The notes under the pieces were generated by a model that searched no databases, was not told the origin of the DNA, and was given only the letters and a program-made list of their open reading frames with translations. Positions 16,508-56,739 of a DNA stretch of 64,000 nt are shown piece after piece. Position 1 is the stretch's first letter. The number at the start of each line of letters is the position of its first letter. Origin of the DNA: Tubulanus polymorphus (taxonomy: Eukaryota > Nemertea > Palaeonemertea > Tubulaniformes > Tubulanidae). Made by a program: the position numbers and the translations under genes. Location: NCBI RefSeq assembly GCF_964204645.1, contig NC_134029.1, positions 19,240,450 through 19,304,449 on the forward strand, read 5' to 3'.

Positions 16508-18054
16508 ATGGCCGCGCCCATGAAACGTGGAACGAAAATGCATGTGCTTGAAAATGTGGACAAAAATCTCCAAAAATACACCGACAAACCGGAGATATTT
16601 TTAAGGTATAGCAATCTTGATTTACGATAATTCTGCTGTTTGTTTGTGCGGCTTGTATATCCCTTAATGATGAAATGACTCGTCAAATTTCAATTCAATC
16701 AAATTAAATTCAAGAAAAAGAATTAAGCACTTATTCTTCGCTCCTAGTCCACTGTCTTCTTTGTAAGCGTTATTTCGTTGCGCTAATGGTGAATGCATTA
16801 TTTTACTTAATGGATCAACATTGATAATTGCTCAATGCAAACAATAGGGCCTACCTGCCTTTTTTTAAATTATACCGCTGCCGATAAGTAGCGCTACTAA
16901 TTTACTCTACTTTTATTTTTTATCACCACTGCGAGTACTGGTAGATCCGAAAATTCATTTAATCATATTCTAAATCGGTCTTAATCGTTGCATTTTCTCT
17001 ACATCTGAATTATTTCAGCACCCAAAAGACGGTCGAGAAGGGGATGAAATCATGTACGAAAGAACTATATGATTTCATGAAAGAGTTCGACTCAGCCGCC
17101 GACTCTAACAGTACCGACGCATTGCCCGAATTGATTGTCGAAAATTTCGACGACGAACAAATTTGGCAGGAAATCGAACTTCAAAACGATCCGCACATCA
17201 GTGGACTCGTGAAGGGTTTGTCTCAATTGATCGCGTTTAAAGGCGATCTGAATTTGCAATTAGCGGACGATGATGATGTCGGACGCGGTGAGAATGAAAG
17301 CGATCAGGAGGAATCGGACCAATCCGAGGATGATGGAAGCGATTCGGAATTCGATGCGGACAATCTCGAAAATGAAACTTACGATTTCGACGATGAAGAT
17401 ATCGATGAATTCGATTTATTAAGAAAACCCGGTGAGGAGTTAGATGACGATGAAGATGACAGTAGCGACATTGGCGAGGATGACGGCGAATGCGGTCGAA
17501 AAAAACTGGTATCGAAGAAACGACGTAAAACTGTCGTCGATGAAAAGTTTTTCAAAATGGCCGACATGGAGGAATTTTTGGAGATGGAAGACGCGAAAGA
17601 AGAGAGACGCTTGAATGGCGACGATGTAAATGATGCAGGAGATATTGATTATTTCACCGAAATTGGCAGCGACGATGAAGGGGATGACGTAGAAGGGGTA
17701 AGTGAAGAGGTAAGGAAATACAGCGTCGCCATTTGAACGGCGGTTGCCTTTCTGTTATCATTCTGCGGTTCAACTCTTGGATATAGTCGATAGTCATATG
17801 CTCAATTGAGTAAACCTAGCTTACCTCGGAATAACTGGGACCGACAAAATCGGTCTGAGGTAAACGAAGTCTGAGTAAATGATTGGAAAATACGTTTAGA
17901 AGTCAAAAAAAATTTTGTGTTGGACATGTCCGAGTAGAGAGAGGTTTACTGTCTTCAAAAATTGGTTTCGTTTATTTTAGGGTAAAAAAGATACCAAGTA
18001 TGGCGACTTCTTTGATTTACCAGAAGGAGAAAATAAGAAAAATGATAGCAATGG

Positions 18055-18087
<33 letters not shown>

Positions 18088-21000
18088 GAATGATGATGGT
18101 GATGAGGAAGAATCTGGGTATGATTTGGGAAAATTGTTGAATAAGCCAAATCTATCCGATTCCTGCTAATTATAGACCTATTCTTTTTCATTGTAGCTTC
18201 AATTTAGAAGATGTTGATGAGGATAATGAAAATGATGACAAAATAAAACACATACCTTTCAAAACTGCGAAACTGTTGTCCGACGACGAAGAAGATAACG
18301 ACGCGTCTCAGAAATCATCGTTTGAAAAGCGACAAGAAAGGGTATGAAATATCATGGAGGCTATCATCCATTTCAAGGGTCTTAATCCACCTCAATTCTT
18401 ACCTACTTCCCTATTTCACATTTTGAATTGGAGCATTAGATTTAAAAGAAATTGTAAACGAGACAGTCAAATTGATAGAATGGAACCTCTTTTATAATGA
18501 ACTCGGATACAATGATTCATCGGATATAACAAATATAGAATTTCGTCCAAAGTATGTTAGACAATTTGATTAATTTCATACTGGATATAACAAACTATCG
18601 GTTATAACGAACATATTTTCTGGTACTGTGTAAGTTCATCGTTACAAAGTTCCGCTGTAGAGCAAAAAACAAACAAGGCGAATTATATTTGAAGATAACA
18701 AGAGAAATCCCACAATAAGTTCAGCCAAAACGAGAAACTTGAATAGAAGAGTTATATATATTTGCGCAACGTTTCGGCTAAAGACTATTAGCCATCATCA
18801 GGCGTACTGAGTACAGGAGAATATTACAAGATATTTATACAAGACCAAAACAATAGAAGCAGAGTGAGTGATTAAATTTGGTCTTGTATAAATATCTTGT
18901 AATATTCTCCTGTACTCAGTACGCCTGATGATGGCTAATAGTCTTTAGCCGAAACGTTGCGCAAATATATATAACTCTTCTATTCAAGTTTCTCGTTTTG
19001 GCTGAACTTATTGTGGGATTTCTCTTGTTATCTTCTTACACGGATATTGTGTATCTTCTCGTCTCATATTTGAAGATCATCAATCCATTATCCACTTCTA
19101 TTGAGCTTTGGCCATGCGGTCCCTGAAATGAATTTCGGTGTGTTTGTGTCATCGCGATATTCTTACCTTCAGTTGCAAAAGCGCATAAGAGAAATGGAAG
19201 ACGTCGCTTTGATGGAGAAACCGTGGCAGCTGTCTGGTGAGGTGACCGGTGGTAAACGTCCTGAGAATAGTCTGCTTCAAGAAAACGTACAGTTCGACCA
19301 AACGGCAAGACCAGGTTAGAACTACTGAAATGATGACGATTAATAAATAAGTAGAGTTATGTTAAACAACGAATATACATGCAAATCTACATTAGATCAG
19401 TTTGATTCTGATTGTGGATAGCGATATCTGGGTAGATTCTACTGCTAAATATGATGTGTGTACCATTTGTAATTTTGGGTTGAAATACTCTATTTTCAGC
19501 TCCAGTCATTACAGAAGAAACGACTAAGCAGTTAGAAGATCTAATAAAGCAGCGCATTAAAGATCAGGTTTATTATCAATCGAGACGTTCTTTACTAGAG
19601 TTAAGGTATTACAATCGGAATGACGTTTGACGGGACTAATTTTCGGTTAATATTTGCATGTAGGCGTGGGATGATGTCACGCGCAAGATTAAACCAAAAG
19701 ATGCGCCGTACGAGTACAAGAAGCGCATCACACTCGATCAGGAAAAGAGTAAGATTAGTCTCGGCGAAGTTTACGAACAGGAATATATAAAACAGACGGA
19801 GGTAAATTGGCCGTTTTGACTGGAATTTCATTTGCCTCACCTGGAATTGATCGTGGTTCTGAAATCGATGATCTGTTCACATTTTAGGAAGAGGCTGAAG
19901 AGAAAGCCGACCCGCAACATGAGGAAATCAAGAAAATGCTGGAATCGCTGTTCATTAAGTTAGACGCTCTTTCTAATTTCCACTATACTCCGAAACCAGT
20001 AAGTATACTGTTCTGTTTTACAAAATGAATCCAAGCGAAACAAAAAATGCATTTAACCTTCTGTAAGTCGGATAAACACTTAAGTCAGAAGAAAAGGTCG
20101 AATATGGCTATTTTCTCATTCGGAAATATATTTTTGTCCCAAAATTGCATATTTGAAATCGGGAACTTACTTGCCTAAGTTGGTAGTATTCTTACGGTGC
20201 GAACAATTAGGATTGTATCAAAACAACTATGGTAGCTGTATGAAGCTATTCATGTGATATTCCCGTCATTGAACCAAACATGCTACAATACAGGGAATAC
20301 ATGTAGGCCCCGCCTCTGATTCAACAAGATAAGTTGAGACGTGCTACATATAAGTTAAAGACCTAAGATTAAACACTCATTTTTTCGAAAGTTTGAAATT
20401 CTGACTTTCTCATACTCAGAATTTTTCTAATTCAAAGAAAATGATCCAGTTGCGAAAGATGCAAAATACGCATGGTTTACTGTATCAGCGTGAAATCATT
20501 GATGTTGATTCAGAATCTGGCTTCTATATATGATAGAGACTTAATGGCTTAAAATCTGTTCATTTCAGGCTATGCCAGAGGTAGAAATAGTCAGTAATTT
20601 GCCGTCAATAGCGATGGAAGAGGTTGCGCCAGTCAGTGTTAGTGATGCAGCGATGTTGGCGCCTGAAGAAATCCAGGTGAGAAAAAAGATAATCTATAGT
20701 ATTATGAAGTGAAATTTGCTCATTCTGTATGAGTTAGGTTGATATTGTCCTATTTTTTTTGTACGATACTTCTAGAAATGTTGTACAAATTCAACCTTGT
20801 GTAGAATACGTTGAACGAGACGGATAGTGCTTTATAAGTTAATTTGTTTATTTGAAGTACGGGCTTTCGCTACTGATGTATATTAACTTTATCAGTGAAT
20901 AAAATCTCTCATTCACGTGATGAAGCTACAATACATTGGTGGCGAAAAGCTCATATTTTATCAGATATCTTGTTTATATGTATGAGCTTTCAATACTAAT

Positions 21001-24035: not shown

Positions 24036-27000
24036 ATGAATCGGCAGCTGTGGGGGCTGTTTATAGCGTCAATGATCCTCTGTCAAGTTTGCATCGCACG
24101 CGCTGATCGCGTAGAATCTATCGAGGAATCGTCAGTGACGGTAAGTTCGTCTTGTAACAACACGTGGTACCCCATCGATTCTACATCTGGTTATATCGTT
24201 TCACCAAATTATCCTTCGTTAACACGCGGCGTTGAATGTCGCTGGTTAATCAACAGCTCTTTACCAGGAGCCGTTCAAGTTTACTACGACATCGATCCGT
24301 CAATATTCTGTAGTGACAACTACCTTCTCGTCCATGAGTCTGATAACAGATTGTGCGGTGATGGAAAACATGATATCCGCAGTAGCGATTTTATACCGTT
24401 GATGTTTAGGAGTAACGTCGATGGTGCGCGGGGTAGCCGGGTTTTTGTCATATATCGTTACGAACGAAACCGATTGAGAATTAGTCACAACTGTCGATAC
24501 AACTTCTATTTAGATAAACTCAATTCGTCAACTGGTTATAAATTCTTCTTGAAAAGACGAGGGATGCCTAATTGCAAATTATTTTTGAATCGGATCGGAA
24601 TATCACGGGATTATGCGATGAATCTCACATTCATTCAGATCATACTCAAATATCAACCTAGACGTCAATCTACCACTAAAATCCACGATGGATGGAATAG
24701 CAGTGATCCCATTGGTATTATACGAAAACAAACTGGATATCCACCATCATCATTTTATACAAAAACAAACAAAGCCCTCATTTCTTTAAATGTTCCAACT
24801 CAGTTCAAGCTTTTTGTTCAGCTGTATAAGATATCAGATTGGAACGTCTCTAATCCATTGATTCGGATCTCAGATAACGAGTCGTCGGGAGTGCTCATAC
24901 CTAGTGACAAGAGCTTACACGTAATAACCCGATCAAAACACTTACACTGCTGGTCTATCACAGTGCAGGTATTACAGTACGTCATATTCAACTGGACCAG
25001 TGATCTCATCATATCCGGTGACGTCATTGCTGTATATAAACTAGAAGGATTACGTATTGTAGGAACTGATATCTTGCTCGGTTACAACTACTTGGAATCA
25101 TTGAATGTCAAAACCGACGGCTTTCTCGTCATACTATGCGTTTTATTGAGGATGGAAGCAGAAAAGTTGCTACAAAAGTTCAACTATGAAATTAAATCGC
25201 ATTCTTTAGAAGACATGTACGTCTACAAATACCGAGTGAGTATTAGGCCTAAATGATATACTTGAATGCATGTGTTACCCGATTTCTCTTATAGAAGTGT
25301 TTCTATTTTCCAGGTGTTATACTGGCGTGCTCACTATTTGAGACATTCCCAACTTTTTCAATACAAAACGAAATCGATTTACAGAATCAAACGTTTTGAT
25401 TTTAAATGGAATGTCAATATCTATGAAGAAACGGACTTTCAATTTTCAGTTTTATCAGAGAACTGTGAGCGAGCTGGATTTTATATATATGATGGTGGCA
25501 ATTTCACAGCTAGACGCTGTGGTCCGTATTGTCCTGGTTCAAAGGAAGGAGGTTACGGTCGATCTATGATCAGCCTGGTTACATCAGGAGGACCGGTTCT
25601 TATAGTAGCATACGCATACAAATACCTGCCGAGAAAATCTCCGTCAAGACTAGTTATTCGCTCTACTGACTGTGACGGGTATGTTCTACAAGAAGGTGAA
25701 CGTCAAATCAATATAACGTCACACTGTCTTGTGATTACACCAGAAACCCGACGCATTGTTTTCACAAATATTCAAGTGTTATCAAAAAAAGAATATGAAA
25801 TTGGTGATTGTTTGCATAATATTGCACCATCAACAATGAGCTGCAAACGGATCCTAAGTCTCAAGAGTGATATACTGAATAACAGTGTCGTATCGTATAC
25901 CGTGAAATTACGATTTAATAACGCATTGCTGAACTATCGATTTATAATCAAACTGCAAACCAAATGTCAGAGGTTGAAAAAGACTCGAAAAGACTACACG
26001 GGGGTGATGTCCTTCGTAAAGAATGAATGTGGTTTGATACAGTCAGATAATTTCCCAGAAAATGCCGGATATAAACTTCAAACTGTATACTATGCATTCG
26101 GTTGGATGGGATACATTAATTACTTTTATAGATTTTATAGATTCATAATAAAATACATAAGCAAGAGAGTGCCATGTATGGGATCACCAGGATTAGACAA
26201 AACCCCAATCATTCTCAAACAATTTGTTAATGATATATCTAGAAGACAGATCACGCACGAATATAAAATATGCGATAAAAGAGCCGAAGTGGGTACTGTA
26301 TTTTACAGCCTTCTTAGTTACAACTTAGGGCTCGAGGTAAAAAGTCGAGTCCCAACATTTCGAATACAATATACATTTGAAAGACCGCCATCAATAGATA
26401 CGCGTGATAGACCGTGTCGTTCAAAATTTCGGGATTCGGGAATTTCATGCGTAAACTATATCAGAGATGAACGTCTGAATTGGGAGAATGCAGAATTGTA
26501 CTGTAGGCAGAAGTTTGCGGGACATTTACTCAGTGTCAACTCAGAACAGGAAATGACTTCCATGAAAAAATTATTCGCTACATCCTTTCTGCATAATGCA
26601 TATTCACAGAAAGCACTCCTAATGATGATTGGATTAAAACTGCAGGTGAATCAGAATTGAAAATAAGTTACATATGGGAAGTTTTCATATAAGAAAACAG
26701 TGTATTTTATCTTCTATTTTGATTTTTTTTCAGCCAAGTTCTGGTCATTACACGTGGACTGATGGGAAACCATTAAGCTACACTGAGTGGTATAAACCTA
26801 CAAATAACGACACGATACCAGAAGTATTACAAGGATTCATATCTCCTTTAAGAAAACAACCGATAAATGACGTCGATATGCCATGTACAGCGATGGTACT
26901 AAATAATCCACGAGGATCGGCGAACTGGTTTCGATTCCCCTGCAAATTCGAAGAGGTTCACTCGAGTTTCATGTGTGAAACAGAAAGAATCGAAAATTTT

Positions 27001-29985
27001 AAGAATGTAAATGCAAAGTTTACATCTACGAACAATGAAACATATTTGATAGGACAAAATGTATTTCAAGACGCCGGTTTCAATGAATCGAGTTGTTCGA
27101 TTGGTTGGGTAAGCATAAATAAACAATGCTATCAAATACTGACAGACTGGAACAAAGATCGAGTTTTAGATATGATAACTGCGGCAGCGATGTGTCATGC
27201 TATCAATGGTGAAATAGTTACTGCTACGATAAGTTACACAGAAACTGAAACTATGAACTTAGTAAGAACATTTAGCTACCAGCCTGTATATAGCTCTATA
27301 CTAACAATGGCTTCTAATGATAGACTGCTAATTATAAACCCAAAAATAACTAGAGATGAAATAACTTATATTCAATCAGTTAAATGGACGACGAAACAGT
27401 TTGATAATGCGACAGATACAGCGCACTCTGTCTTGTGTTCTTACAACGCAACTAGTGATACGTTAGCTTCTACAAGCAGTTGTAAATCGTGGCAGTTTAA
27501 ATGTAACGATCAAAGATGTATTAGTGACCATCGTGTATGTGACACCAGACACGACTGTCATCACGGTGAAGATGAATTCAACTGTACGGATATAAATAAT
27601 CTATATAGTCAGTTTCAGTGCTATGATGGCCAGGTCATATCAATGAGTGGTTTCTGTGATTTCATGCACGATTGTGCGGATGGTTCTGATGAGAACTCGT
27701 GTTTTCATCCCGCGTGTTTGTCCGAACAATTTCGCTGCAACAGTGGGCGATGTATCAGTCGGTCAAACAGGTGTGACGGAGTCACTGATTGTAAAGACGG
27801 CTCCGATGAAAGTGGATGCACCGCTCAACTGTGCCAGGGGTTCTTGTGTAACAGTGGTGACTGCATTAGTTCTCAGTTGTATCAAGATGGTGTCGTGGAT
27901 TGCAGTGGAAGCCTCGAAGAAGATGAATTAGTGACAGCTACTAATGTTACAATGAATCCTACGATTGAATGCAATAATGAGAACCATTGTACATTTAACT
28001 TCACAAATCTCTGTAAAGCTTCGGACGAACAAAGATGTTCTTTCAATTCTCCGCATTGTTATGCAAGACGTCATAGATGTATTCTAGAAAGAACAGCAAA
28101 TGGTAACCCAGTTTGTAGAAATCTTGAGCACGTATTGAGATGTGAAGAATTTGAATGTCCAGCTAGTACCGTAAAATGTCCAACATCGTACTGTATACCA
28201 ATCAGACAGGTATGCGATGGTCAATCAGATTGTCCTAATTCAGAAGATGAAAAAAACTGTGAGACATTTACATGCCCACGTATGTTCAAATGTGGCCAGG
28301 AAAATCGATGTATTCCACAATCTGAAGTTTGTGATGGCGTCATAAATTGTAAGCATACAACTGATGACGAGGCTTTCTGTAACGTCACCTGTCCGAGAGG
28401 TTGTACATGTCAAGGCTATTTAATTGATTGTAAAAATACTGGTTTAACAGATATCACTCGCCTTTTCCCACCATCAACTCGGGTTTTGGTTTTATCAAAT
28501 AACCGAATCATCTTGAACGCGTCGACGTTATCGTTATTTGTCTATCTTCGTATGCTCAACATCTCCTCCAATGAATTTTCCTATATTTTACCAAACTTGT
28601 TCAAAAACCTGAATAATTTACATACATTAGACCTAACGTATAACAACATAAGATCATTATCCACAAACACATTCACTGGTTTATATAGTTTGAAAGAGTT
28701 ATTCATAACTGAAAATCCACTACGTCATTTGATGGACGATACCTTCCAAGATTTGAAGTCACTTAAAGTTCTTAATCTTGATGGACTTTCCTTATTGGTG
28801 CTTGGTAGAAATGTATTTCGAGGTTTATCTACATTACATTCGTTGAATATCAGCACTAACAGAATCAATCGTATTTCAAGATATGCATTTTCTGGATTAA
28901 CTTCACTTGAAATGCTAGATATAACCAATAACTACAAAGTTATTTCTGTCGACAAAGATGCTTTCAACAACATGACATCTCTAGTCTTTCTAACGTCTGA
29001 TGCTTACAAATTTTGCTGCATGGCTCCTAATGTTGACCAGTGCCTTCCTGAAGCTGACCAATTTTCCTCCTGTTCTGATCTGATGGGTAATACAGCCCTT
29101 AGAGCTATCATCTGGGTAATCGCTGCATTTAGTTTTTTCGCTAATGGAATTGTCATTTCTCTTCGCATTCATGCGATATGTTTCTCCTCAAATCCATCCT
29201 CAGACATCATCATCATTAATGTTGCTGTGTGTGATTTCATGATGTCTATATATCTATTTTTGATCGCGGGAGCCGATCACATTTATAGAGGTATTTACTT
29301 CCTAAATTCAGAATCATGGACGGACAGTTTGTATTGTCGTCTTGCGGGGGTCGTGGTGTTTATTTCTTGCGAAGGTTCATTGACATTTTTGCTGGTAATG
29401 ACGCGTCACAGATTATCAAATATAGTTAATCCATTTTCTGGAAACCCGATTACATCTATAAGATATGTGTGCGTGATTTGTTGTACCTGTTGGATTGTCT
29501 TAAGTGTCATTGCACTACTACCACTTATGCCAGTCCCATACTTTGGAAGCAACTTCTACGGTACTACAGGAGTTTGTTTACCTATGAATTTAATTTCAAT
29601 TGATGTTAGTGCCTGGCAATATTCATTCGCTATTTTCTCTTTATCCAACTCGCTCATACTAGCTACGATAATGGGGACTTATTTTCAAATGTACAGACTC
29701 GTATCTGGAAGCAGGTCTGGTTCGGGTAGAGCTGATCCTACCGAACTGATTCTGGCACGTAGGAGTTTGGTAATAAATCTTTGTAATTTATTTTGCTGGC
29801 TGCCGTTAATAATTGTTCAGTTTTGCGCGGTATTTCGTGTAGAAATACCGAATCAGGTGGCGGCTTGGCTAGCGGTTCTTTTCTTACCGATAAACTCGTC
29901 TCTCAATCCCCTTCTTTACACTATACTGACTATTGATATGAAATCCATACGAGCTAAAACTAAACGCTGGCAACATAGAAAATGA
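24036..29985 (+). CDS. GRL101-like class A GPCR with CUB-like, C-type lectin-like, LDLa and LRR ectodomain (3 exons)
   Basis: Exons 24036-25235, 25314-26645 and 26734-29985 join in phase 0 (CGA|gtgagt..ccag|GTG; CAG|gtgaat..tcag|CCA) to give 1927 aa. Domains: signal peptide 1-23; CUB domain about 37-160 (GYIVSPNYP); further Cys-poor CUB-like segments to about 760; C-type-lectin-like domain about 768-930 with WTDGKPLSYTEW, split by intron 2; a second degenerate lectin-like domain about 965-1085; five clear LDL-receptor-A modules plus two degenerate ones about 1091-1392 (DCKDGSDESGC type); LRR N-cap CPRGCTC and about seven leucine-rich repeats to about 1610; seven-helix domain about 1630-1915. 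Class A residues: N in ANGIV (TM1), D in AVCDF (TM2), C before RLAG (TM3), NPLLY (TM7). The DRY site reads TRHR. The C-tail is short. The ligand is unknown. The tracked frame begins upstream with TTG; the first ATG is 24036. Confidence 0.92.
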
Positions 29986-31474: not shown

Positions 31475-31743
31475 GTTCAGAAATTTGATGAACTTACATT
31501 TAATTTCATTGCATATAATATACAGTGCATAGGTGGATGCGTAGATGAGAGTGAGTTCCAACTAGAAAACAATAATGTCAATAAAAATCAATATTATTGT
31601 CAATATTGTAAAAAATACATCGATAAATCTTACATGGAAAATGTTAGAAATTATATTGATTCACTAGAAATAAAAGATATAATTAAAATTTTAGAAATAT
31701 TACGTAATAAAATTGTGACACACATAAACAGTGAGTGCGCGTA
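31475..31743 (+). CDS. AT-rich Cys-containing ORF fragment crossing the left edge of the palindrome
   Basis: An open frame free of stops runs from after the TGA at 31472-31474 to the TAA at 31741-31743. It includes CIGGCVDESEF, then YYCQYCKKYIDKSYMENV, and ends KIVTHINSECA. The pair of CxxC-like cysteines suggests a small zinc-binding domain. There is no ATG at the start. A plausible 3' splice site (ATATACAG) lies just before the codon for C in CIGGC, so this may be a last exon, or the remnant of a longer gene. Base composition matches the palindrome rather than the flank. The last ten codons lie inside the left arm, so the right arm holds a copy of only the 3' end. Function unknown. Confidence 0.45.
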
Positions 31744-31815
31744 ACAACAGCTGCTTTTTTTTTGCTTTTTTCCAAAAATAAACACACTTTTTAATATAAA
31801 AGCGCTAATAAAATG

Positions 31816-32093
31816 ATAAAATTGTTCAATATTAAAAGTGTGAGTAAAGTGTGAGTAAAATAATTGAGATTTTCAATATTAAAAGTGTGAGTAAAGTGTG
31901 AGTAAAATAATTGAGATTTTCAATATTAAAAGTGTGAGTAAAGTGTGAGTAAAATAATTGAGATTTTCAATATTAAAAGTGTGAGTAAAGTGTGAGTAAA
32001 ATAATTGAGATTTTCAATATTAAAAGTGTGAGTAAAGTGTGAGTAAAATGATAAAATTGTTCAATATTAAAAGTGTGAGTAAAGTGTGAGTAA
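31816..32093 (+). repeat. 47-bp tandem repeat upstream of the 207-aa ORF (about six copies)
   Basis: The unit carries TTCAATATTAAAAGTGTGAG followed by TAAAGTGTGAGTAAAAT. Four central copies (from 31863) have ATTGAGATTTTC and the outer two have ATAAAATTGTTC. The last copy runs into the ATG region of the next ORF. The position suggests a promoter or origin-like role, which is inference. Confidence 0.9.
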
Positions 32094-32109
32094 TAATTTT
32101 GTTATAAAA

Positions 32110-32733
32110 ATGAAGAAAGAAGAACCCAACTTCAAAATCGAAATCAATGAACCCAATAAATCATTTTCACAGTTTAACATTAAAAATTATATTTCAGCAA
32201 CAAATTTAGTGTCCGCAAGACATTATAAAATTGATAATATTACTGTAATTAATCAAATATTATTAAATGAAACTTATTTAATTACTGAACTAATAGATAC
32301 TTTAGATAATGGCGCCAAAAATCCTAAAATATTTAATACAGTTTTAAATTATAAAGGTAATTTAGATGAAAACATAATAAATATTCTTAAATGTCCTTTT
32401 AATGAAAGAGAAAGTGATATAATACTTTCAAAAGGTAATGATAGGATAGACTTAAGAATTGAAAAACGACAATTATATTATTATAATTTTGATAATAAAC
32501 AAATTATCTATAATGAAAATTCATCAAATATTGGAATTCAATGTGATTTAGATAATGAAAAATCATATAAAGATGTTGCAGTTCAATGTAACTTAGATAA
32601 TGAAATTGTTACGCCTAAATATGAACCTAATGAAAAAGTGTTATGTGATTGTGGAAAATATTATACTCGAAGCAATAAATCCCACCATCTTAAATCAAAA
32701 TATCATAACTCGAAATTAATAATTCAACTCTAA
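32110..32733 (+). CDS. Unknown 207-aa protein with C-terminal CxCG...H...H zinc-finger-like motif (left-arm copy)
   Basis: The start is the ATG at 32110 (MKKEEPNFKIEI); the frame can be opened upstream only with a GTG. The protein is Asn/Lys/Ile-rich and intronless, with very AT-rich codons. Near the C-terminus are two tandem acidic repeats, IGIQCDLDNE and VAVQCNLDNE. They are followed by VLCDCGKYYTRSNKSHHLKS and a final His, a C-x-C-G...H-x(5)-H arrangement likely to bind zinc. Similar short CxCG...H tails are common in small proteins of large DNA viruses and Polinton-like elements, but I cannot name a family. An exact second copy lies at 39637-39014 on the other strand. It is followed by a related frame at 32709-33023. 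Confidence 0.75.
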   Translation: MKKEEPNFKIEINEPNKSFSQFNIKNYISATNLVSARHYKIDNITVINQILLNETYLITELIDTLDNGAKNPKIFNTVLNYKGNLDENIINILKCPFNERESDIILSKGNDRIDLRIEKRQLYYYNFDNKQIIYNENSSNIGIQCDLDNEKSYKDVAVQCNLDNEIVTPKYEPNEKVLCDCGKYYTRSNKSHHLKSKYHNSKLIIQL

Positions 32734-33023
32734 AAATCAAAACAAATAACATAAGAAAAGACTTAACAACATTAAAACATAATTTTGATTTTCGCAATTA
32801 TCCCAAAGATCATGAACTATTTAGCAATGATAATAAAAAGATTCCGGATTTAGAAAATAGTAAATCTTTTAAACATATCGCAATTCAATGTGATTTAGAA
32901 AATGAATTCAAAAGATTTAATCCTAATGAAAAAATTCATTGTTATTGCGGAGGTAAATATTCAAAATCACATAAATCAAAGCATTACCAAACAATTAAAC
33001 ATAAAAACTGGTGTAAAGAGTAA
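32709..33023 (+). CDS. Second ORF paralogous to the C-terminus of the 207-aa protein (no ATG; left-arm copy)
   Basis: This frame overlaps the end of the preceding ORF in a different register and stays open for 104 codons to the TAA at 33021-33023. It contains IAIQCDLENEF, then NEKIHCYCGGKYSKSHKSKH and TIKHKNWCKE. This repeats the module of the upstream protein: IQCDLxNE, then NEK, then CxCG, then His-rich tail. No ATG is available, so expression would need a frameshift, splicing from the upstream gene or a non-ATG start. Otherwise it is a decayed duplicate. Its long open frame in both arms suggests recent function. Mirror copy at 39038-38724. Confidence 0.5.
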   Translation, partial: LEINNSTLKIKTNNIRKDLTTLKHNFDFRNYPKDHELFSNDNKKIPDLENSKSFKHIAIQCDLENEFKRFNPNEKIHCYCGGKYSKSHKSKHYQTIKHKNWCKE

Positions 33024-33096
33024 CAATTCTACATTGAAAATAAATTAAATAGTCAAATAATTATTGAATTTAGTTAAATGATTTAAATATTTAATA

Positions 33097-35279
33097 GACT
33101 GTTGAAATGATAAATTGTTTGGCTGTTAAAATGATAAATTGTTTGACATTTGAAATGATAAATTGTTTGACTGTTGAAATGATTTGACAGTTGAAATGAT
33201 AAATTGTTTGACAGTTGAAATGATTTGACAGTTGAAATAATAAATTGTTTGACAGTTGAAATGATAAATTGTTTGACAGTTGAAATGATAAATTGTTTGA
33301 CAGTTGAAATGATAAATTGTTCGACTGTTGAAATGATAAATTGTTCGACTGTTGAAATGATTTGACAGTTGAAATAATAAATTGTTTGACAGTTGAAATG
33401 ATAAATTGTTTGACAGTTGAAATGATAAATTGTTTGACAGTTGAAATGATAAATTGTTCGACTGTTGAAATGATAAATTGTTCGACTGTTGAAATGATTT
33501 GACAGTTGAAATAATAAATTGTTTGACAGTTGAAATGATAAATTGTTTGACAGTTGAAATAATAAATTGTTTGACAGTTGAAATGATAAATTGTTTGACA
33601 GTTGAAATGATTTGACAGTTGAAATAATAAATTGTTTGACAGTTGAAATGATAAATTGTTTGACAGTTGAAATGATAAATTGTTTGACAGTTGAAATGAT
33701 TTGACAGTTGAAATAATAAATTGTTTGACAGTTGAAATGATAAATTGTTTGACAGTTGAAATGATAAATTGTTTGACAGTTGAAATGATAAATTGTTTGA
33801 CTGTTGAAATGATAAATTGTTTGACAGTTGAAATGATTTGACAGTTGAAATAATAAATTGTTTGACAGTTGAAATGATAAATTGTTTGACAGTTGAAATG
33901 ATAAATTGTTTGACAGTTGAAATGATAAATTGTTTGACAGTTGAAATGATAAATTGTTTGACAGTTGAAATGATAAATTGTTCGACTGTTGAAATGATAA
34001 ATTGTTTGACAGTTGAAATGATAAATTGTTCGACTGTTGAAATGATAAATTGTTCGACTGTTGAAATGATTTGACAGTTGAAATAATAAATTGTTTGACA
34101 GTTGAAATGATAAATTGTTTGACAGTTGAAATAATAAATTGTTTGACAGTTGAAATGATAAATTGTTTGACAGTTGAAATGATAAATTGTTTGACAGTTG
34201 AAATGATAAATTGTTCGACTGTTGAAATGATAAATTGTTCGACTGTTGAAATGATTTGACAGTTAAAATAATAAATTGTTTGACAGTTGAAATGATTTGA
34301 CAGTTGAAATAATAAATTGTTTGACAGTTGAAATGATAAATTGTTTGACAGTTGAAATGATAAATTGTTTGACAGTTGAAATGATAAATTGTTTGACAGT
34401 TGAAATGATAAATTGTTTGACAGTTGAAATGATAAATTGTTCGACTGTTGAAATGATAAATTGTTTTACAGTTGAAATGATAAATTGTTTGACAGTTGAA
34501 ATGATTTGACAGTTGAAATAATAAATTGTTTGACAGTTGAAATGATAAATTGTTTGACAGTTGAAATGATAAATTGTTTGACAGTTGAAATGATAAATTG
34601 TTTGACTGTTGAAATGATAAATTGTTTGACAGTTGAAATGATTTGACAGTTGAAATAATAAATTGTTTGACAGTTGAAATGATAAATTGTTTGACAGTTG
34701 AAATGATAAATTGTTTGACAGTTGAAATGATAAATTGTTTGACAGTTGAAATGATAAATTGTTTGACAGTTGAAATGATAAATTGTTCGACTGTTGAAAT
34801 GATAAATTGTTTGACAGTTGAAATGATAAATTGTTCGACTGTTGAAATGATAAATTGTTCGACTGTTGAAATGATTTGACAGTTGAAATAATAAATTGTT
34901 TGACAGTTGAAATGATAAATTGTTTGACAGTTGAAATAATAAATTGTTTGACAGTTGAAATGATAAATTGTTTGACAGTTGAAATGATAAATTGTTTGAC
35001 AGTTGAAATGATAAATTGTTCGACTGTTGAAATGATAAATTGTTCGACTGTTGAAATGATTTGACAGTTGAAATAATAAATTGTTTGACAGTTGAAATGA
35101 TTTGACAGTTGAAATAATAAATTGTTTGACAGTTGAAATGATAAATTGTTTGACAGTTGAAATGATAAATTGTTTGACAGTTGAAATGATAAATTGTTCG
35201 ACTGTTGAAATGATAAATTGTTTGACAGTTGAAATGATAAATTGTTTGACAGTTGAAATGATAAATTGTTTAGCTGTAA
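33097..35279 (+). repeat. 24-bp/17-bp tandem array, left arm (about 2.2 kb)
   Basis: The main 24-bp unit is TTGACAGTTGAAATGATAAA plus TTGT. A 17-bp shortened unit (lacking ATAAATT) recurs at intervals and sets up higher-order blocks. A TTCGACTG variant and an AATAATAA variant also recur. The unit is a multiple of three, so it reads as endless TVEMINCL, with apparent ORFs of 60-80 codons broken at each 17-bp unit. These lack ATG starts and are not genes. The unit contains no spacer diversity, so this is not a CRISPR array. Confidence 0.97.
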
Positions 35280-35395
35280 ATTTAATTGTTATTTGATTTA
35301 ATCATTTAAAAGTTTAATATTTTAAAAATGATTTTAAAATATTTAAATAAAAACAAGCAAATGTTTATTAATTTTCTAATTTCTTTCTTAAATAA

Positions 35396-35614
35396 ATGGA
35401 TGGTTTCATTCCAACTGGGAAAAGTGATTTAAAACATTATTTAGTTGCTGGAGGTTTAATTTTAGCTGCGCTTTACTTTTATTATGAAAATATTTCAAAA
35501 GATTTAATAAATGAAAATAATAAATTAAGCAAGAAAATAAAGAAGTTAAATACTAAAAATGGAAATAATTATAAAAACGGTAATAATCACAAGAAAGTTG
35601 TTGAATCAGATTAA
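35396..35614 (+). CDS. Unknown 72-aa predicted single-pass membrane protein (left-arm copy)
   Basis: ATG start; the protein begins MDGFIPTGKSDLKHY. A strongly hydrophobic segment follows (VAGGLILAALYFYY, about residues 17-31). Then comes a Lys/Asn-rich, coiled-coil-prone tail with NGNNYKNGNNHKK. The layout resembles small membrane proteins of DNA viruses, but no family is recognised. The mirror copy at 36906-36688 differs at one residue (Ile to Leu, codon 48). Confidence 0.7.
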   Translation: MDGFIPTGKSDLKHYLVAGGLILAALYFYYENISKDLINENNKLSKKIKKLNTKNGNNYKNGNNHKKVVESD

Positions 35615-35650
35615 ATAGTGAATTAATCTATTAAAATCTTTTCTTATTAA

Positions 35651-35932
35651 ATGAGTGAAAATATATTAAATTTGTTAAATCTTATTTACAGAAATCAAGA
35701 GAAAATGAAATTAATTATGATGATTTCAGGGTTACTTTCATTTTCAGTTTATAGTTTGAAACAATTGTTTCATTTTTATGATGATTGTAAAATAAAATAT
35801 ATTGAATTGAAAAATAATATCAATTACATTTCAGATAGAATGAATAATATTAAAAGATGCGAAATTTGTAGTAAAAAATACAAGACGGAAAAAGGATTTA
35901 GAAATCATAAAATTGGGCATAAATTGGAATGA
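35651..35932 (+). CDS. Unknown 93-aa protein with N-terminal hydrophobic segment and C-terminal C2H2 finger (left-arm copy)
   Basis: ATG start at 35651, 36 bases after the stop of the preceding ORF, same strand. It begins MSENILNLLNLIYRNQEKMK, followed by a hydrophobic stretch LIMMISGLLSFSVYSL (about 21-36). The C-terminus holds CEICSKKYKTEKGFRNHKIG then H, a complete C-x2-C...H-x3-4-H classical zinc finger. A membrane-anchored C2H2 protein is unusual. Identical copy at 36651-36370. Function not known. Confidence 0.72.
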   Translation: MSENILNLLNLIYRNQEKMKLIMMISGLLSFSVYSLKQLFHFYDDCKIKYIELKNNINYISDRMNNIKRCEICSKKYKTEKGFRNHKIGHKLE

Positions 35933-36134
35933 TTAAATAACAAATTAAAGTAAAGAATTTAAAAAAAATCTCATTTATTGTGTAAAATTGAAATACTTTG
36001 AACTACGACTAAAATTAAACTAAAATAGACAACTTTGTTTATCTAATGAAATTTTAGTTATATTTTAGTTGAATTGTAATTAAAGTTAGTTGCAACTAAC
36101 TTCAACTAGAATTTAACTAGAATTGACTAAAAAT

Positions 36135-36167
36135 TTAAAAAGATTAACAAGACAGTTGATTTAGTGT
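36135..36167. other. 33-nt centre of the palindrome
   Basis: The only unpaired part of the inverted repeat, running from TTAAAAAGATTAAC to GATTTAGTGT. The arms on each side are rich in short nested palindromes. This would be the loop of a hairpin telomere or the breakpoint of a fold-back duplication. Confidence 0.9.
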
Positions 36168-36369
36168 ATTTTTAGTCAATTCTAGTTAAATTCTAGTTGA
36201 AGTTAGTTGCAACTAACTTTAATTACAATTCAACTAAAATATAACTAAAATTTCATTAGATAAACAAAGTTGTCTATTTTAGTTTAATTTTAGTCGTAGT
36301 CCAAAGTATTTCAATTTTACACAATAAATGAGATTTTTTTTAAATTCTTTACTTTAATTTGTTATCTAA

Positions 36370-36651
36370 TCATTCCAATTTATGCCCAATTTTATGATTT
36401 CTAAATCCTTTTTCCGTCTTGTATTTTTTACTACAAATTTCGCATCTTTTAATATTATTCATTCTATCTGAAATGTAATTGATATTATTTTTCAATTCAA
36501 TATATTTTATTTTACAATCATCATAAAAATGAAACAATTGTTTCAAACTATAAACTGAAAATGAAAGTAACCCTGAAATCATCATAATTAATTTCATTTT
36601 CTCTTGATTTCTGTAAATAAGATTTAACAAATTTAATATATTTTCACTCAT
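36370..36651 (-). CDS. 93-aa C2H2-finger protein (right-arm copy)
   Basis: Amino-acid identical to the product of 35651-35932, on the opposite strand. The two copies converge on the palindrome centre. A single substitution lies four bases after the stop codon. Confidence 0.72.
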   Translation of the reverse strand: MSENILNLLNLIYRNQEKMKLIMMISGLLSFSVYSLKQLFHFYDDCKIKYIELKNNINYISDRMNNIKRCEICSKKYKTEKGFRNHKIGHKLE

Positions 36652-36687
36652 TTAATAAGAAAAGATTTTAATAGATTAATTCACTAT

Positions 36688-36906
36688 TTAATCTGATTCA
36701 ACAACTTTCTTGTGATTATTACCGTTTTTATAATTATTTCCATTTTTAGTATTTAACTTCTTTAATTTCTTGCTTAATTTATTATTTTCATTTATTAAAT
36801 CTTTTGAAATATTTTCATAATAAAAGTAAAGCGCAGCTAAAATTAAACCTCCAGCAACTAAATAATGTTTTAAATCACTTTTCCCAGTTGGAATGAAACC
36901 ATCCAT
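36688..36906 (-). CDS. 72-aa membrane protein (right-arm copy)
   Basis: Same as the product of 35396-35614 except Leu for Ile at residue 48 (TTA against ATA). Confidence 0.7.
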   Translation of the reverse strand: MDGFIPTGKSDLKHYLVAGGLILAALYFYYENISKDLINENNKLSKKLKKLNTKNGNNYKNGNNHKKVVESD

Positions 36907-37022
36907 TTATTTAAGAAAGAAATTAGAAAATTAATAAACATTTGCTTGTTTTTATTTAAATATTTTAAAATCATTTTTAAAATATTAAACTTTTAAATGA
37001 TTAAATCAAATAACAATTAAAT

Positions 37023-38650
37023 TTACAGCTAAACAATTTATCATTTCAACTGTCAAACAATTTATCATTTCAACTGTCAAACAATTTATCATTTCAACAG
37101 TCGAACAATTTATCATTTCAACTGTCAAACAATTTATCATTTCAACTGTCAAACAATTTATCATTTCAACTGTCAAACAATTTATCATTTCAACTGTCAA
37201 ACAATTTATCATTTCAACTGTCAAACAATTTATTATTTCAACTGTCAAATCATTTCAACTGTCAAACAATTTATTATTTCAACTGTCAAATCATTTCAAC
37301 AGTCGAACAATTTATCATTTCAACAGTCGAACAATTTATCATTTCAACTGTCAAACAATTTATCATTTCAACTGTCAAACAATTTATCATTTCAACTGTC
37401 AAACAATTTATTATTTCAACTGTCAAACAATTTATCATTTCAACTGTCAAACAATTTATTATTTCAACTGTCAAATCATTTCAACAGTCGAACAATTTAT
37501 CATTTCAACAGTCGAACAATTTATCATTTCAACTGTCAAACAATTTATCATTTCAACAGTCGAACAATTTATCATTTCAACTGTCAAACAATTTATCATT
37601 TCAACTGTCAAACAATTTATCATTTCAACTGTCAAACAATTTATCATTTCAACTGTCAAACAATTTATCATTTCAACTGTCAAACAATTTATTATTTCAA
37701 CTGTCAAATCATTTCAACTGTCAAACAATTTATCATTTCAACAGTCAAACAATTTATCATTTCAACTGTCAAACAATTTATCATTTCAACTGTCAAACAA
37801 TTTATTATTTCAACTGTCAAATCATTTCAACTGTCAAACAATTTATCATTTCAACTGTCAAACAATTTATCATTTCAACTGTCAAACAATTTATTATTTC
37901 AACTGTCAAATCATTTCAACTGTCAAACAATTTATCATTTCAACTGTCAAACAATTTATCATTTCAACTGTCAAACAATTTATCATTTCAACTGTCAAAC
38001 AATTTATCATTTCAACTGTCAAACAATTTATTATTTCAACTGTCAAATCATTTCAACTGTCAAACAATTTATCATTTCAACAGTCAAACAATTTATCATT
38101 TCAACTGTCAAACAATTTATCATTTCAACTGTCAAACAATTTATCATTTCAACTGTCAAACAATTTATTATTTCAACTGTCAAATCATTTCAACTGTCAA
38201 ACAATTTATCATTTCAACTGTCAAACAATTTATCATTTCAACTGTCAAACAATTTATTATTTCAACTGTCAAATCATTTCAACTGTCAAACAATTTATCA
38301 TTTCAACTGTCAAACAATTTATTATTTCAACTGTCAAACAATTTATCATTTCAACTGTCAAACAATTTATTATTTCAACTGTCAAATCATTTCAACAGTC
38401 GAACAATTTATCATTTCAACAGTCGAACAATTTATCATTTCAACTGTCAAACAATTTATCATTTCAACTGTCAAACAATTTATCATTTCAACTGTCAAAC
38501 AATTTATTATTTCAACTGTCAAATCATTTCAACTGTCAAACAATTTATCATTTCAACTGTCAAATCATTTCAACAGTCAAACAATTTATCATTTCAAATG
38601 TCAAACAATTTATCATTTTAACAGCCAAACAATTTATCATTTCAACAGTC
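37023..38650 (-). repeat. 24-bp/17-bp tandem array, right arm (about 1.6 kb)
   Basis: Same units as 33097-35279 in reverse complement. The 555-bp deficit equals, for example, 21 long plus 3 short units, so the arms differ by whole repeats. Block order matches near both ends, and the difference is internal. Confidence 0.97.
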
Positions 38651-38723
38651 TATTAAATATTTAAATCATTTAACTAAATTCAATAATTATTTGACTATTT
38701 AATTTATTTTCAATGTAGAATTG

Positions 38724-39038
38724 TTACTCTTTACACCAGTTTTTATGTTTAATTGTTTGGTAATGCTTTGATTTATGTGATTTTGAATATTTACCTCCGC
38801 AATAACAATGAATTTTTTCATTAGGATTAAATCTTTTGAATTCATTTTCTAAATCACATTGAATTGCGATATGTTTAAAAGATTTACTATTTTCTAAATC
38901 CGGAATCTTTTTATTATCATTGCTAAATAGTTCATGATCTTTGGGATAATTGCGAAAATCAAAATTATGTTTTAATGTTGTTAAGTCTTTTCTTATGTTA
39001 TTTGTTTTGATTTTTAGAGTTGAATTATTAATTTCGAG
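38724..39038 (-). CDS. Second paralogous ORF without ATG (right-arm copy)
   Basis: Mirror of 32709-33023, with the same stop and the same absence of an ATG. I saw no difference between the two copies. Confidence 0.5.
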   Translation of the reverse strand, partial: LEINNSTLKIKTNNIRKDLTTLKHNFDFRNYPKDHELFSNDNKKIPDLENSKSFKHIAIQCDLENEFKRFNPNEKIHCYCGGKYSKSHKSKHYQTIKHKNWCKE

Positions 39039-39637
39039 TTATGATATTTTGATTTAAGATGGTGGGATTTATTGCTTCGAGTATAATATTTTCCACAATC
39101 ACATAACACTTTTTCATTAGGTTCATATTTAGGCGTAACAATTTCATTATCTAAGTTACATTGAACTGCAACATCTTTATATGATTTTTCATTATCTAAA
39201 TCACATTGAATTCCAATATTTGATGAATTTTCATTATAGATAATTTGTTTATTATCAAAATTATAATAATATAATTGTCGTTTTTCAATTCTTAAGTCTA
39301 TCCTATCATTACCTTTTGAAAGTATTATATCACTTTCTCTTTCATTAAAAGGACATTTAAGAATATTTATTATGTTTTCATCTAAATTACCTTTATAATT
39401 TAAAACTGTATTAAATATTTTAGGATTTTTGGCGCCATTATCTAAAGTATCTATTAGTTCAGTAATTAAATATGTTTCATTTAATAATATTTGATTAATT
39501 ACAGTAATATTATCAATTTTATAATGTCTTGCGGACACTAAATTTGTTGCTGAAATATAATTTTTAATGTTAAACTGTGAAAATGATTTATTGGGTTCAT
39601 TGATTTCGATTTTGAAGTTGGGTTCTTCTTTCTTCAT
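39014..39637 (-). CDS. 207-aa zinc-finger-like protein (right-arm copy)
   Basis: Identical translation to 32110-32733, with ATG at 39637-39635. It is preceded on its own strand by the mirror 47-bp repeats (39931-39654). Confidence 0.75.
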   Translation of the reverse strand: MKKEEPNFKIEINEPNKSFSQFNIKNYISATNLVSARHYKIDNITVINQILLNETYLITELIDTLDNGAKNPKIFNTVLNYKGNLDENIINILKCPFNERESDIILSKGNDRIDLRIEKRQLYYYNFDNKQIIYNENSSNIGIQCDLDNEKSYKDVAVQCNLDNEIVTPKYEPNEKVLCDCGKYYTRSNKSHHLKSKYHNSKLIIQL

Positions 39638-39653
39638 TTTTATAACAAAATTA

Positions 39654-39931
39654 TTACTCACACTTTACTCACACTTTTAATATTGAACAATTTTATCATT
39701 TTACTCACACTTTACTCACACTTTTAATATTGAAAATCTCAATTATTTTACTCACACTTTACTCACACTTTTAATATTGAAAATCTCAATTATTTTACTC
39801 ACACTTTACTCACACTTTTAATATTGAAAATCTCAATTATTTTACTCACACTTTACTCACACTTTTAATATTGAAAATCTCAATTATTTTACTCACACTT
39901 TACTCACACTTTTAATATTGAACAATTTTAT
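39654..39931 (-). repeat. 47-bp tandem repeat, right arm
   Basis: Mirror of 31816-32093, about six copies, upstream of the 207-aa ORF on the minus strand. Confidence 0.9.
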
Positions 39932-40034
39932 CATTTTATTAGCGCTTTTATATTAAAAAGTGTGTTTATTTTTGGAAAAAAGCAAAAAAAAAGCAGCTGT
40001 TGTTACGCGCACTCACTGTTTATGTGTGTCACAA

Positions 40035-41065
40035 GAAGTGAAACGCAAGAAGATCAAGAAGAAAGAACAACGCGAGAAACTCGTCGAAAAAATCAGACCG
40101 GGTTTGGGTAACACGTACAGTAAAAAACGAGCGCTTTCCGAACGAGAGAAGGCTAGTAAAGCAACGGATAAGCTTATTAAGGTATGTTTCAGAATATGAT
40201 CAAATTTTATAGCGTGGATACTAGGCAGGGGTTTACAACGAAACCTCGTTATAATGGATGTCGATATAGCGAATTATTACATCTGAAAACATAGAATTTC
40301 GTCCAAAATGAGAAAATCTATCTTTATTTCGTACTATAGACTATAGACAAGTAACGTAAGGAACAGATCTGTTCGGCGTTGTGCCGATATTCTGCGGTAT
40401 TTTTCACGTGCAGTTTAATCTTTTCTTTCTGATTGAAAAGTTGTTAATCTGACCCTGTAGATAAACGGGACGATTTCATGAATGTAACAGACAAGAAAGC
40501 AAAGAAACTCAATGCAATCGTTAGAAAGCAGGGGCCAGACTTTTGTCAGATAAAAATGTTGAATATGCGTAGACTGGAAATGACTGAAGGCAGTCTATTT
40601 AACAAATACATTTTTTGAAAGCCTTCAAATTTTCTTGATCCTCAAGTGATTATCTGGTGGAGCCTGCAGTATAAAATCACTGGTCGCTTCTTGACGTGAT
40701 TTATGATGATTGAATGCAATAGATGGTGCATGCATCGCACAAAACATTCGTCGTCTTCGTTGCTATATTTCTGGGATAAATCCAGTTCCGCTAAAAAGTC
40801 TCTGACCTCGTCGAAACAGTTCTTCATTTCAAGGCAAAGTTACGTCCCATAAAATCGTCAGAAAGGTGCGCCACAAGTGAAGAAGAAACAAAAAAGTTTG
40901 GCTACAAAATTGATGTTGTAGTAGACAAAGTGATTCTAGAAATATCTTGTATATAAATAGATTAACTGTCAATAAAACTATAACGATATTTAGAATTTTT
41001 TTGACTTGCCGGTGTTTTATTTTCGGATGGTTGCAGAAGACAAGCTGTTCATATTGGAATTATAA
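40035..41065 (+). pseudogene. MPHOSPH10: Truncated MPHOSPH10 copy: 3' part of exon 10, intron 10, exon 11 and 3' flank
   Basis: Similarity to 21690-22760 begins within a few bases of the palindrome edge, mid-exon (AAACGCAAGAAGATCAAG). It continues through the exon 10 end (ATTAAG|GTATG), intron 10, exon 11, the AATAAA at 40971-40976 and about 75 bases beyond. The intron is retained, so this is a DNA-level duplication, not a processed copy. The exon 11 acceptor has changed from CTAG|G to CTGGG (about 40771). Exon 11 has indels around TTCTTCATTTCAAGG and in CATAAAATCG that break the frame. The upstream ten exons are absent. The copy is non-functional, and its divergence shows it is much older than the divergence between the palindrome arms. 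Confidence 0.9.
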
Positions 41066-54175: not shown

Positions 54176-55313
54176 CATATAGACACATGGCCCTTCAAGC
54201 GTGTTGGATTCGCACCTTCGCGTCTCGTAAAGATGCAAACAACTCATTTAGTTAAACTTATTTTCGAATAACCCATGTACTGAAGTATATTACGGCTGTT
54301 TAAAAAAAATCTATTGTTTATCGAACTCCACCCATTTTAATGAAAATGTACAGAATATCCGATTTTACCCGATACTGCAGCGTGGAAAAAACAGTATCAG
54401 TCTCAACAGCAAAGGACTGCAGCGAAAAGCTCGTCGTGAATTCACTTCTAGGTCTATCGGACGAAGTAATAGCTGGCGCCTTATGGCGTATCTGCATTAT
54501 GCAGTTCACTCTGTTAGCATCGCGGCTTTAATCTCCTTACACGATGTTAAACTACCTGAGGATAGATTTTATTATCGGCGGATTCTGCTGATTTAGACGG
54601 CATTGCCGTTCTATCATCATAAAAATCCGTACTCGTCCCCCCGTGTACGTTATGTCATCTGACCTGAAGCGGTGGATTTAAGAAATATTTGGTTCCGCTA
54701 TTGTTGTCGCGTCGTAATGCGATATTCTCATCATTTTATTTTTAATGCCTCCTCTCTCTGAAATGCGATCAGTTTCTATATGAATAAAGATTATACCTTT
54801 ATACACGAACCAAAAATTCAACAAATATATTCTTCTGATTTGGGAAACGTTCTATCAATAAACATCATGCGTCCATCCTACGGTTTCGCTCATAATGAAC
54901 GGGTATTGGCCTCCTTGCTGAAACCGTTTTGAAAATCCTAATTCGTGTTATTTTTCGAGAAAAAAAGATTTCAAATAAGTTTACATAAACCCGAAGAAGA
55001 ATTCTATAGCTTTTGGTTTTTTAATGGTGTCGGTTTATTATTTCTGTCTATCATTGCTGTCGGTTCATTATATACTTTTTCTTCCATGGTGTTTAAAAGG
55101 TTTTTGTAAGTCTATCATATATGCAGTATTTATTTTCCCCGTAAGTATGTAATCTTTCTATACGTTTTGTTGACATTTAAAACCGCGACAATGACAGCGA
55201 CTTCATTCAGAAAAAAATGCAGTTTTCTGAATTTCAAACTGCATCTAATCTGTCTTTCGACGTCTATACCCTGTCGTCAACTGTAGACGCAGTCATTTTT
55301 TTCTACCCTGGCT
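54176..55313. other. Gene-poor stretch
   Basis: No supported gene, repeat family or RNA is visible here. Confidence 0.45.
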
Positions 55314-55319
55314 GTATTT

Positions 55320-56652: not shown

Positions 56653-56739
56653 GTATTTGACAACATCCGGCGATTTTTCTATTTTTCATCGTCATCAAGT
56701 TTAAAATCATCGAATTTCCCTTTCTGTATCTGTCTCTGA

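Follow-up and report, generated by a model that had tools for sequence, protein, structure and literature searches.

Polintons (also called Mavericks) end in 5'-AG. To our knowledge, they are thought to be virus-like and copied by protein priming, and direct evidence of their copying in animals is scarce. Palindromic genomes of protein-primed linear DNA are known from defective adenoviruses, in which one end is duplicated head-to-head and the origin is present at both ends; these are sporadic laboratory products. Other points of comparison are Fold-back (FB) or Galileo-type transposons, which have other termini and another transposase class, and the virophages and transpovirons. Here we describe an 8.3-kb palindrome in a stretch of 64,000 nucleotides from the nemertean Tubulanus polymorphus (positions 19,240,450 to 19,304,449 of contig NC_134029.1; hereafter "the window"). 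We consider it probable, at odds of roughly two in three (about 0.65), that this palindrome is one copy, now truncated, of a non-autonomous, palindromic, gene-bearing Polinton satellite that is remade by fold-back copying.

Like Polintons, the palindromes of this family have 5'-AG termini, 6-bp target-site duplications and subterminal sequence of the Polinton DNA polymerase (PolB), but polymerase, integrase, ATPase and capsid genes are all missing from them, most of their length is mirror-symmetric with two equal ends, and they have genes of their own that we call A, B and C. As in the defective adenoviruses, one element end is duplicated head-to-head, yet the palindromes are inherited, multicopy and endowed with conserved genes that are absent from the helper pieces read. 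Long inverted arms, internal tandem arrays and a short middle recall FB/Galileo-type transposons, which unlike them have no link to PolB. Virophages and transpovirons are likewise small elements with their own genes tied to a larger viral element, whereas the presumed helper here is a Polinton of an animal genome and the satellite is palindromic, with no capsid gene found. Known kinds are Polintons, long-repeat transposons and the palindromic defective genomes mentioned above, and the satellite-like family is not itself an autonomous Polinton; in the literature searched (titles and abstract openings, with few subscription journals) we found no gene-bearing palindromic Polinton or Polinton satellite in animals.

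A family of palindromes with genes of its own

In the assembly sequence, arms of 4422 bp (31713-36134) and 3867 bp (36168-40034) are mirrored around a 33-nt centre (36135-36167), and their 555-bp difference in length lies inside a tandem array. The G+C content (GC) is 23% in the palindrome and 38% elsewhere in the window. Self-comparison bears out the arms, centre, length difference and AT-richness given in a preliminary description made from the letters of the window alone; that description had counted three arm-to-arm substitutions outside the array, where we find four (at 32274, 35537, 35936 and 36001). The palindrome is real, since arms of 4 kb and a family of dozens of copies put it beyond chance. 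Its extent, first taken to be 31713..40034, is right for the arms, but leftwards the element goes on to about 31541-31547 and includes there a piece of the PolB N-terminus; its right limit in the window is 40034. The parts of the window copy are as follows:

31541..31714, plus strand: left subterminal Polinton piece with the PolB N-terminus (blastn/tblastn against the PolB end of locus L041)
31713..36134, plus strand: left palindrome arm (self-comparison)
31825..32093, plus strand: 47-bp tandem array upstream of gene A
32110..32733, plus strand: gene A, 207 amino acids (aa) here and 206-218 aa in other copies
32730..32846, plus strand: PolB C-terminus fragment, 39 residues, 87% identical to the L041 PolB
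32847..33020, plus strand: second gene-A tail (residues 161-218 of the L009 protein)
33097..35271, plus strand: 24/17-bp tandem array
35396..35614, plus strand: gene B, 72 aa, one membrane span by eye
35651..35932, plus strand: gene C, 93 aa, membrane span by eye and C2H2 finger
36135..36167, no strand: 33-nt centre
36168..40034, minus strand: right palindrome arm, truncated at 40034
36370..36651, minus strand: gene C, mirror copy
36688..36906, minus strand: gene B, mirror copy (stop codon included)
37031..38650, minus strand: 24/17-bp tandem array of the right arm, shorter
38727..38900, minus strand: second gene-A tail, mirror copy
38901..39017, minus strand: PolB C-terminal fragment, mirror copy
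39014..39637, minus strand: gene A, mirror copy
39654..39922, minus strand: 47-bp tandem array, mirror copy

The leftmost piece joins PolB residues of about 1-30 to those of about 120-155 and is itself truncated. Its layout recurs at three other loci (L029, L030 and L031), there with an intact AGTAAT end: these loci have the same subterminal sequence as the window and extend about 266 bp further, to AGTAATTGG. The sequence TTGTGACACAC at 31713 was considered as a terminus of the element and rejected, as comparison with the three loci shows it to be an internal position; the outer edge of the mirror is the site of right-arm truncation and hence not a terminus. Judging from these comparisons, the window copy is truncated and both of its termini are gone.

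Three gene-like open reading frames (ORFs) of 207, 72 and 93 aa, genes A, B and C, are found in each arm. Four per arm had been listed before, but the additional one (ORF 32709-33023) lacks an ATG and consists of the PolB C-terminus piece followed by the second gene-A tail. Integrase, packaging ATPase and capsid frames are absent from the window arms, where PolB occurs only as fragments. A profile search of the ORFs, as the preliminary description had proposed, gave nothing at the Pfam cut-offs: window gene A has no match, A, B and C of three copies have no match at cut-off (polymerase, integrase and replication-protein families included), and the C2H2 finger of gene C scores under the curated thresholds. 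Gene A of locus L024 weakly matches the plasmid replication family RepL (0.037, 14.0 bits, cut-off 20.3), and PHROGs, which has no cut-off, returned weak matches only (best 0.0045, for gene C). The C-terminus of the gene A protein shows a CxCG..H..H motif by eye, and its single-sequence fold prediction (pLDDT, the predicted confidence score, of 30) is too low for use. A protein search with gene A gave no relative at E <= 1e-3 (184 candidates); an alignment search gave three matches at 0.07-0.36 (best 0.074), which by eye have only the CxCG..H..H tail in common with it. For gene C a single close relative came to light, the 95-aa protein P0004 of a 1,030-base contig (64% identity, E 5e-36), and scans of viral contigs with genes C and A found no relative.

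Between subfamilies, the ratio of nonsynonymous to synonymous change (dN/dS) is 0.39-0.43 in gene A, 0.14-0.17 in gene B and 0.25-0.31 in gene C, from non-independent pairs and with no significance test; within subfamilies, where the counts are small, it is 0.28-0.67 in gene A and 0.29-0.77 in gene C (the 0.77 from five changes). As far as sequence comparison can tell, A, B and C are conserved genes of the palindrome family itself, present once per arm in full copies.

Searches of the whole genome (268 Mb in 77 contigs) revealed at least 258 and at least 92 matches at the DNA level, and at the protein level gene A in at least 150 places (at least 157 matches) and gene C in at least 150. The A and C positions listed (149 of 150 for C) fall into at least 191 clusters, and in at least 37 of these A or C is present in opposite orientations. 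From the best matches we compared 19 further loci (L009-L027) and pieces of others. Whole palindromes among them include L024 (5,936 bp, 99.7% symmetric end to end) and L026 (6.8 kb, 98%), and parts of an arm have been lost at some loci (most of one arm in L012 and L027). By these matches the palindrome of the window is a member of a multicopy mobile DNA family, so that the further arm copies whose search had been suggested do exist. At L016:4584-5469 the centre is expanded into several units at 118-bp steps, each matching the centre on both strands.

Polinton termini at both ends

Copies of the family start with AGTAATTRGRAAAG... or AGTAATAGGG.... AG is present at both ends in 10 of the 13 two-ended copies, with AGTAAT at both in nine; the right end of L012 reads AGTAAC, and the left end is mutated in L022, L024 and L027. 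An exact 6-bp target-site duplication flanks nine of these 13 copies (L009, L012, L013, L014, L016, L026, L027, C5:17389k and C10:10193k), seven of which retain both arms whole or in part, and also the autonomous Polinton on contig C8. As a control, left flanks compared with the right flanks of other copies gave 0 matches in 182. Duplications of 6 bp are typical of the Polinton rve integrase (PMC12220804).

The AGTAATAGGG termini have 1,536 matches genome-wide. The first 100 listed, all on contig C1, hold 39 double-ended units of 184-449 bp; among the matches listed, neighbouring units there that span 5-24 kb are of equal length in 9 of 16 pairs, as if whole terminal units were copied between the ends of an element.

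Autonomous Polintons, the presumed helpers, occur in the same genome. A PolB search gave 111 matches (88 loci after merging neighbouring rows), with many frames of 1,000-1,690 aa. The Polinton at C2:15018052-15023115 (L041:3553-8616) has a PolB frame of 1,687 aa, of which a 461-residue part matches PF03175 at 7.8e-20; for the whole frame, this family is not listed at E <= 0.1. An intein-splicing match (9.5e-8, 32.4 bits) stays under its cut-off of 35.8 and a LAGLIDADG match (8.7e-6, 26.4 bits) is over its own; by eye, an intein-like insert splits the last, YxDTD-type polymerase motif. The AGTAATTGG end lies 115 bp upstream of this frame. In the autonomous element the left terminus leads into the start of PolB, and a 108-aa gene is found just inside the right one. 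The C8 Polinton (1,797,734-1,814,383, about 16.6 kb), read except for 1,797,901-1,805,999, has 80 bp identical at both ends and the duplication GCCATT. Its downstream pieces encode an rve integrase (1.7e-10) with a Chromo match (5.2e-5, just under cut-off), an A32-like ATPase (Pox_A32 2.7e-13) and a capsid-like protein (Capsid_N 0.0097, under cut-off). A 140-aa gene of the Polinton family is found in at least 150 places (1,323 candidates), each listed copy being 99-100% identical, which suggests that the Polintons spread recently. None of the genes A, B and C is matched in the Polinton pieces L041, L043 and L044, which do not include that same part of C8.

A second PolB element at C4:15999500-16012300 (L039/L040) is also an inverted duplication, 99.5-99.7% identical, whose 1,208-aa PolB has no significant BLASTP match to the first. 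Its GC is 43%; the unique sequence at its centre, about 0.84 kb long, overlaps a C2H2 gene, and its arms hold a PC4-like gene.

Comparison of their ends indicates that the palindrome family and the Polintons share AGTAAT termini together with subterminal sequence that belongs either to PolB or to the gene at the right end. These common termini, the PolB pieces and the target-site duplications uphold the mobile, Polinton-related origin suggested in the preliminary description, and the longer unit that it had proposed to look for is represented by Polintons with PolB, an rve-chromo integrase and a weakly capsid-like protein. Its idea that the palindrome is what a head-to-head concatemer of a hairpin-ended linear element would leave is not supported, as the outer edges of better-preserved palindromes are AGTAAT termini with 6-bp duplications.

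Ends were typed by matching the DNA on the inner side of each terminus to the subterminal DNA of Polintons, which contains PolB on the left and the 108-aa gene on the right. All seven copies that could be typed have two ends of one kind and none is mixed: L009, L012 and L014 are right-right, and L013, L015, L016 and C4:15509k are left-left. One break point is common to L009 and L014, L012 retains a longer piece that includes the 108-aa gene in full, and two or three related deletions are seen among the left-left copies. Single ends were seen as right pieces in L010, L017, L018, L019 and L032 and as left pieces in L031 and the window copy. Gene A of right-right L009 differs from that of left-left L015 by 0 synonymous and 3 nonsynonymous changes and gene C by none, which argues that both ends changed together in otherwise alike elements. 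In the gene-A tree, L012 (right-right) neighbours L016 (left-left), with weak support (95/48).

The same pattern appears in the terminal variants, of which about six are common. Among the first 100 of 249 listed termini we find 29 adjacent facing pairs, and both members carry the same variant in 28 of them (shuffled mean 6.2, maximum 15). Three pairs are palindrome-sized (6.7-10.5 kb) and 26 span more than 13 kb, 25 of the latter matching. It follows that, within lineages at least, both ends of a copy change together. Over 435 nt of gene A, the two arms of an element are closer to each other than to any other copy in seven of nine elements.

Proposed fold-back copying and competing explanations

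Under the favoured reading, a Polinton integrase would insert the satellite and the protein-primed Polinton PolB would replicate it by strand displacement. The displaced, self-complementary strand would fold at the short centre into one long hairpin, a duplex with a single terminus, and copying through this hairpin would yield a new perfect palindrome in which one arm has been rewritten from the other. With such rewriting in each round, differences between the arms would accumulate only after integration. Deletions would afterwards have removed both termini of the window copy, on the right up to a host exon. Replication and integration in trans, and with them the dependence on a helper, are what we infer. 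The more far-reaching proposal that these are inherited self-complementary parasites of Polintons, with the whole genome a palindrome that is snap-back copied by the helper polymerase and with both ends swappable at once for either helper end, is a tentative one that we hold at somewhat less than even odds.

Several observations weigh against fold-back copying by a Polinton helper. The partner arm is not the nearest copy for gene A in L009 and L013, and for the inner 661-nt segment with genes B and C it is nearest in only two of seven elements (L024 and L026); this segment is nearly identical among young copies, and L009 and L010, with a common flank and arm-specific changes, are not independent. 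Break points shared among the typed copies imply few lineages rather than seven independent events, and matched ends, which could be inherited within lineages, do not tell when the copying took place. The end pieces of L015 differ between its two arms, and L015, L022, L024 and C4:15509k (four of the 13 two-ended copies) lack a target-site duplication. In the AGTAATAGGG-type copies L022, L024, L026, L027, C5:17389k and C10:10193k neither Polinton end was matched; the ends common to palindromes and Polintons are those of AGTAATTRG-type copies, with no helper identified for the AGTAATAGGG-type. At C4:15509k (G000:C4:15507300-15518000; L033/L029 and L030/L034) the mirror symmetry continues into the flanks, reaching at least about 2.1 kb beyond the termini of the element (96.7% over a 2.7-kb alignment); this inverted duplication of the surrounding chromosome means that chromosomal DNA was involved at least once. 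Finally, PolB rows come within 6.5 kb of five of the 191 A/C clusters among the matches listed. One of the five, C1:14082k, is a Polinton that adjoins a palindromic copy, and others are two loci on C8 and one on C9 (C9:6298-6305k).

The strongest competitor, which we nevertheless regard as unlikely, is that gene conversion in the chromosome keeps the arms alike after an ordinary insertion, as in sex-chromosome palindromes, with no role for replication. Conversion between close inverted repeats is well known and would account for near-identical arms; the elements with an arm for which some other copy is at least as close as the partner (L009 and L013 for gene A, five of seven for the inner segment) are in its favour as well. 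It poorly explains the matched ends of 16-kb elements with unlike interiors (the 25 of 26 pairs above 13 kb) or the symmetry of L024 over its entire 5.9 kb, and the single kind of end in all typed copies also speaks against it, though conversion could spread an end change too.

We give still less credence to the view that the palindromes are core-less Polintons with very long terminal repeats and that A, B and C are passengers of the autonomous element. The common termini and PolB fragments would fit, purifying selection could then act in the parent, and a few clusters do have PolB nearby. In two of these, C8:2482k and C8:3423k (C8:2478571-2482951 and C8:3419432-3423725), gene A neighbours degraded PolB matches that are of a different kind, perhaps a hint of some larger element with gene A in it. 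However, the C8 Polinton shares only 80 identical bases between its ends, the three genes are unmatched in the Polinton pieces read, and 186 of the 191 clusters have no PolB row nearby among the matches listed.

Slightly less plausible again is an independent small virus or transposon made of A-B-C, with its own replication and merely captured Polinton ends. Conserved genes of its own, the lack of a gene A relative at E <= 1e-3 and the weak RepL match would suit such an element, but none of its genes reaches the Pfam cut-off of a polymerase, integrase or replication-protein family, and both its ends and the length of its duplication equal those of Polintons. The mirrored flanks of C4:15509k lend some colour to the idea that the chromosome was duplicated locally by folding back, or that the assembly is at fault, but this is very improbable for a family with dozens of copies, target duplications between different flanks on each side and arms that differ by substitutions and by 555 bp.

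Surroundings of the window copy and significance

The truncated right end of the window copy adjoins a host coding stretch:

40035..40196, plus strand: host coding stretch, presumably resembling the C-terminal part of MPP10

An N-terminal MPP10 exon is found at 16963-17733 (Pfam PF04006, 3e-31), and MPP10-like exons (window 16963-20025 and 40035-40600) flank a 20-kb stretch that holds the palindrome and a receptor frame with LDLa, LRR and 7TM domains (26650-29985). Tandem repeats at 55303-56660 are open in several frames on both strands and encode FWRGRQN and RFGAPAKT repeats.

Since the genome contains many Polinton copies whose genes are near-identical, the dependence of the palindromes on a helper could be tested. 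If the favoured reading is true, the genome would preserve a record of copying from one end to the other in its same-end palindromes and matched terminal variants, and a gene-bearing satellite of an animal Polinton would be a counterpart of virophages and transpovirons.

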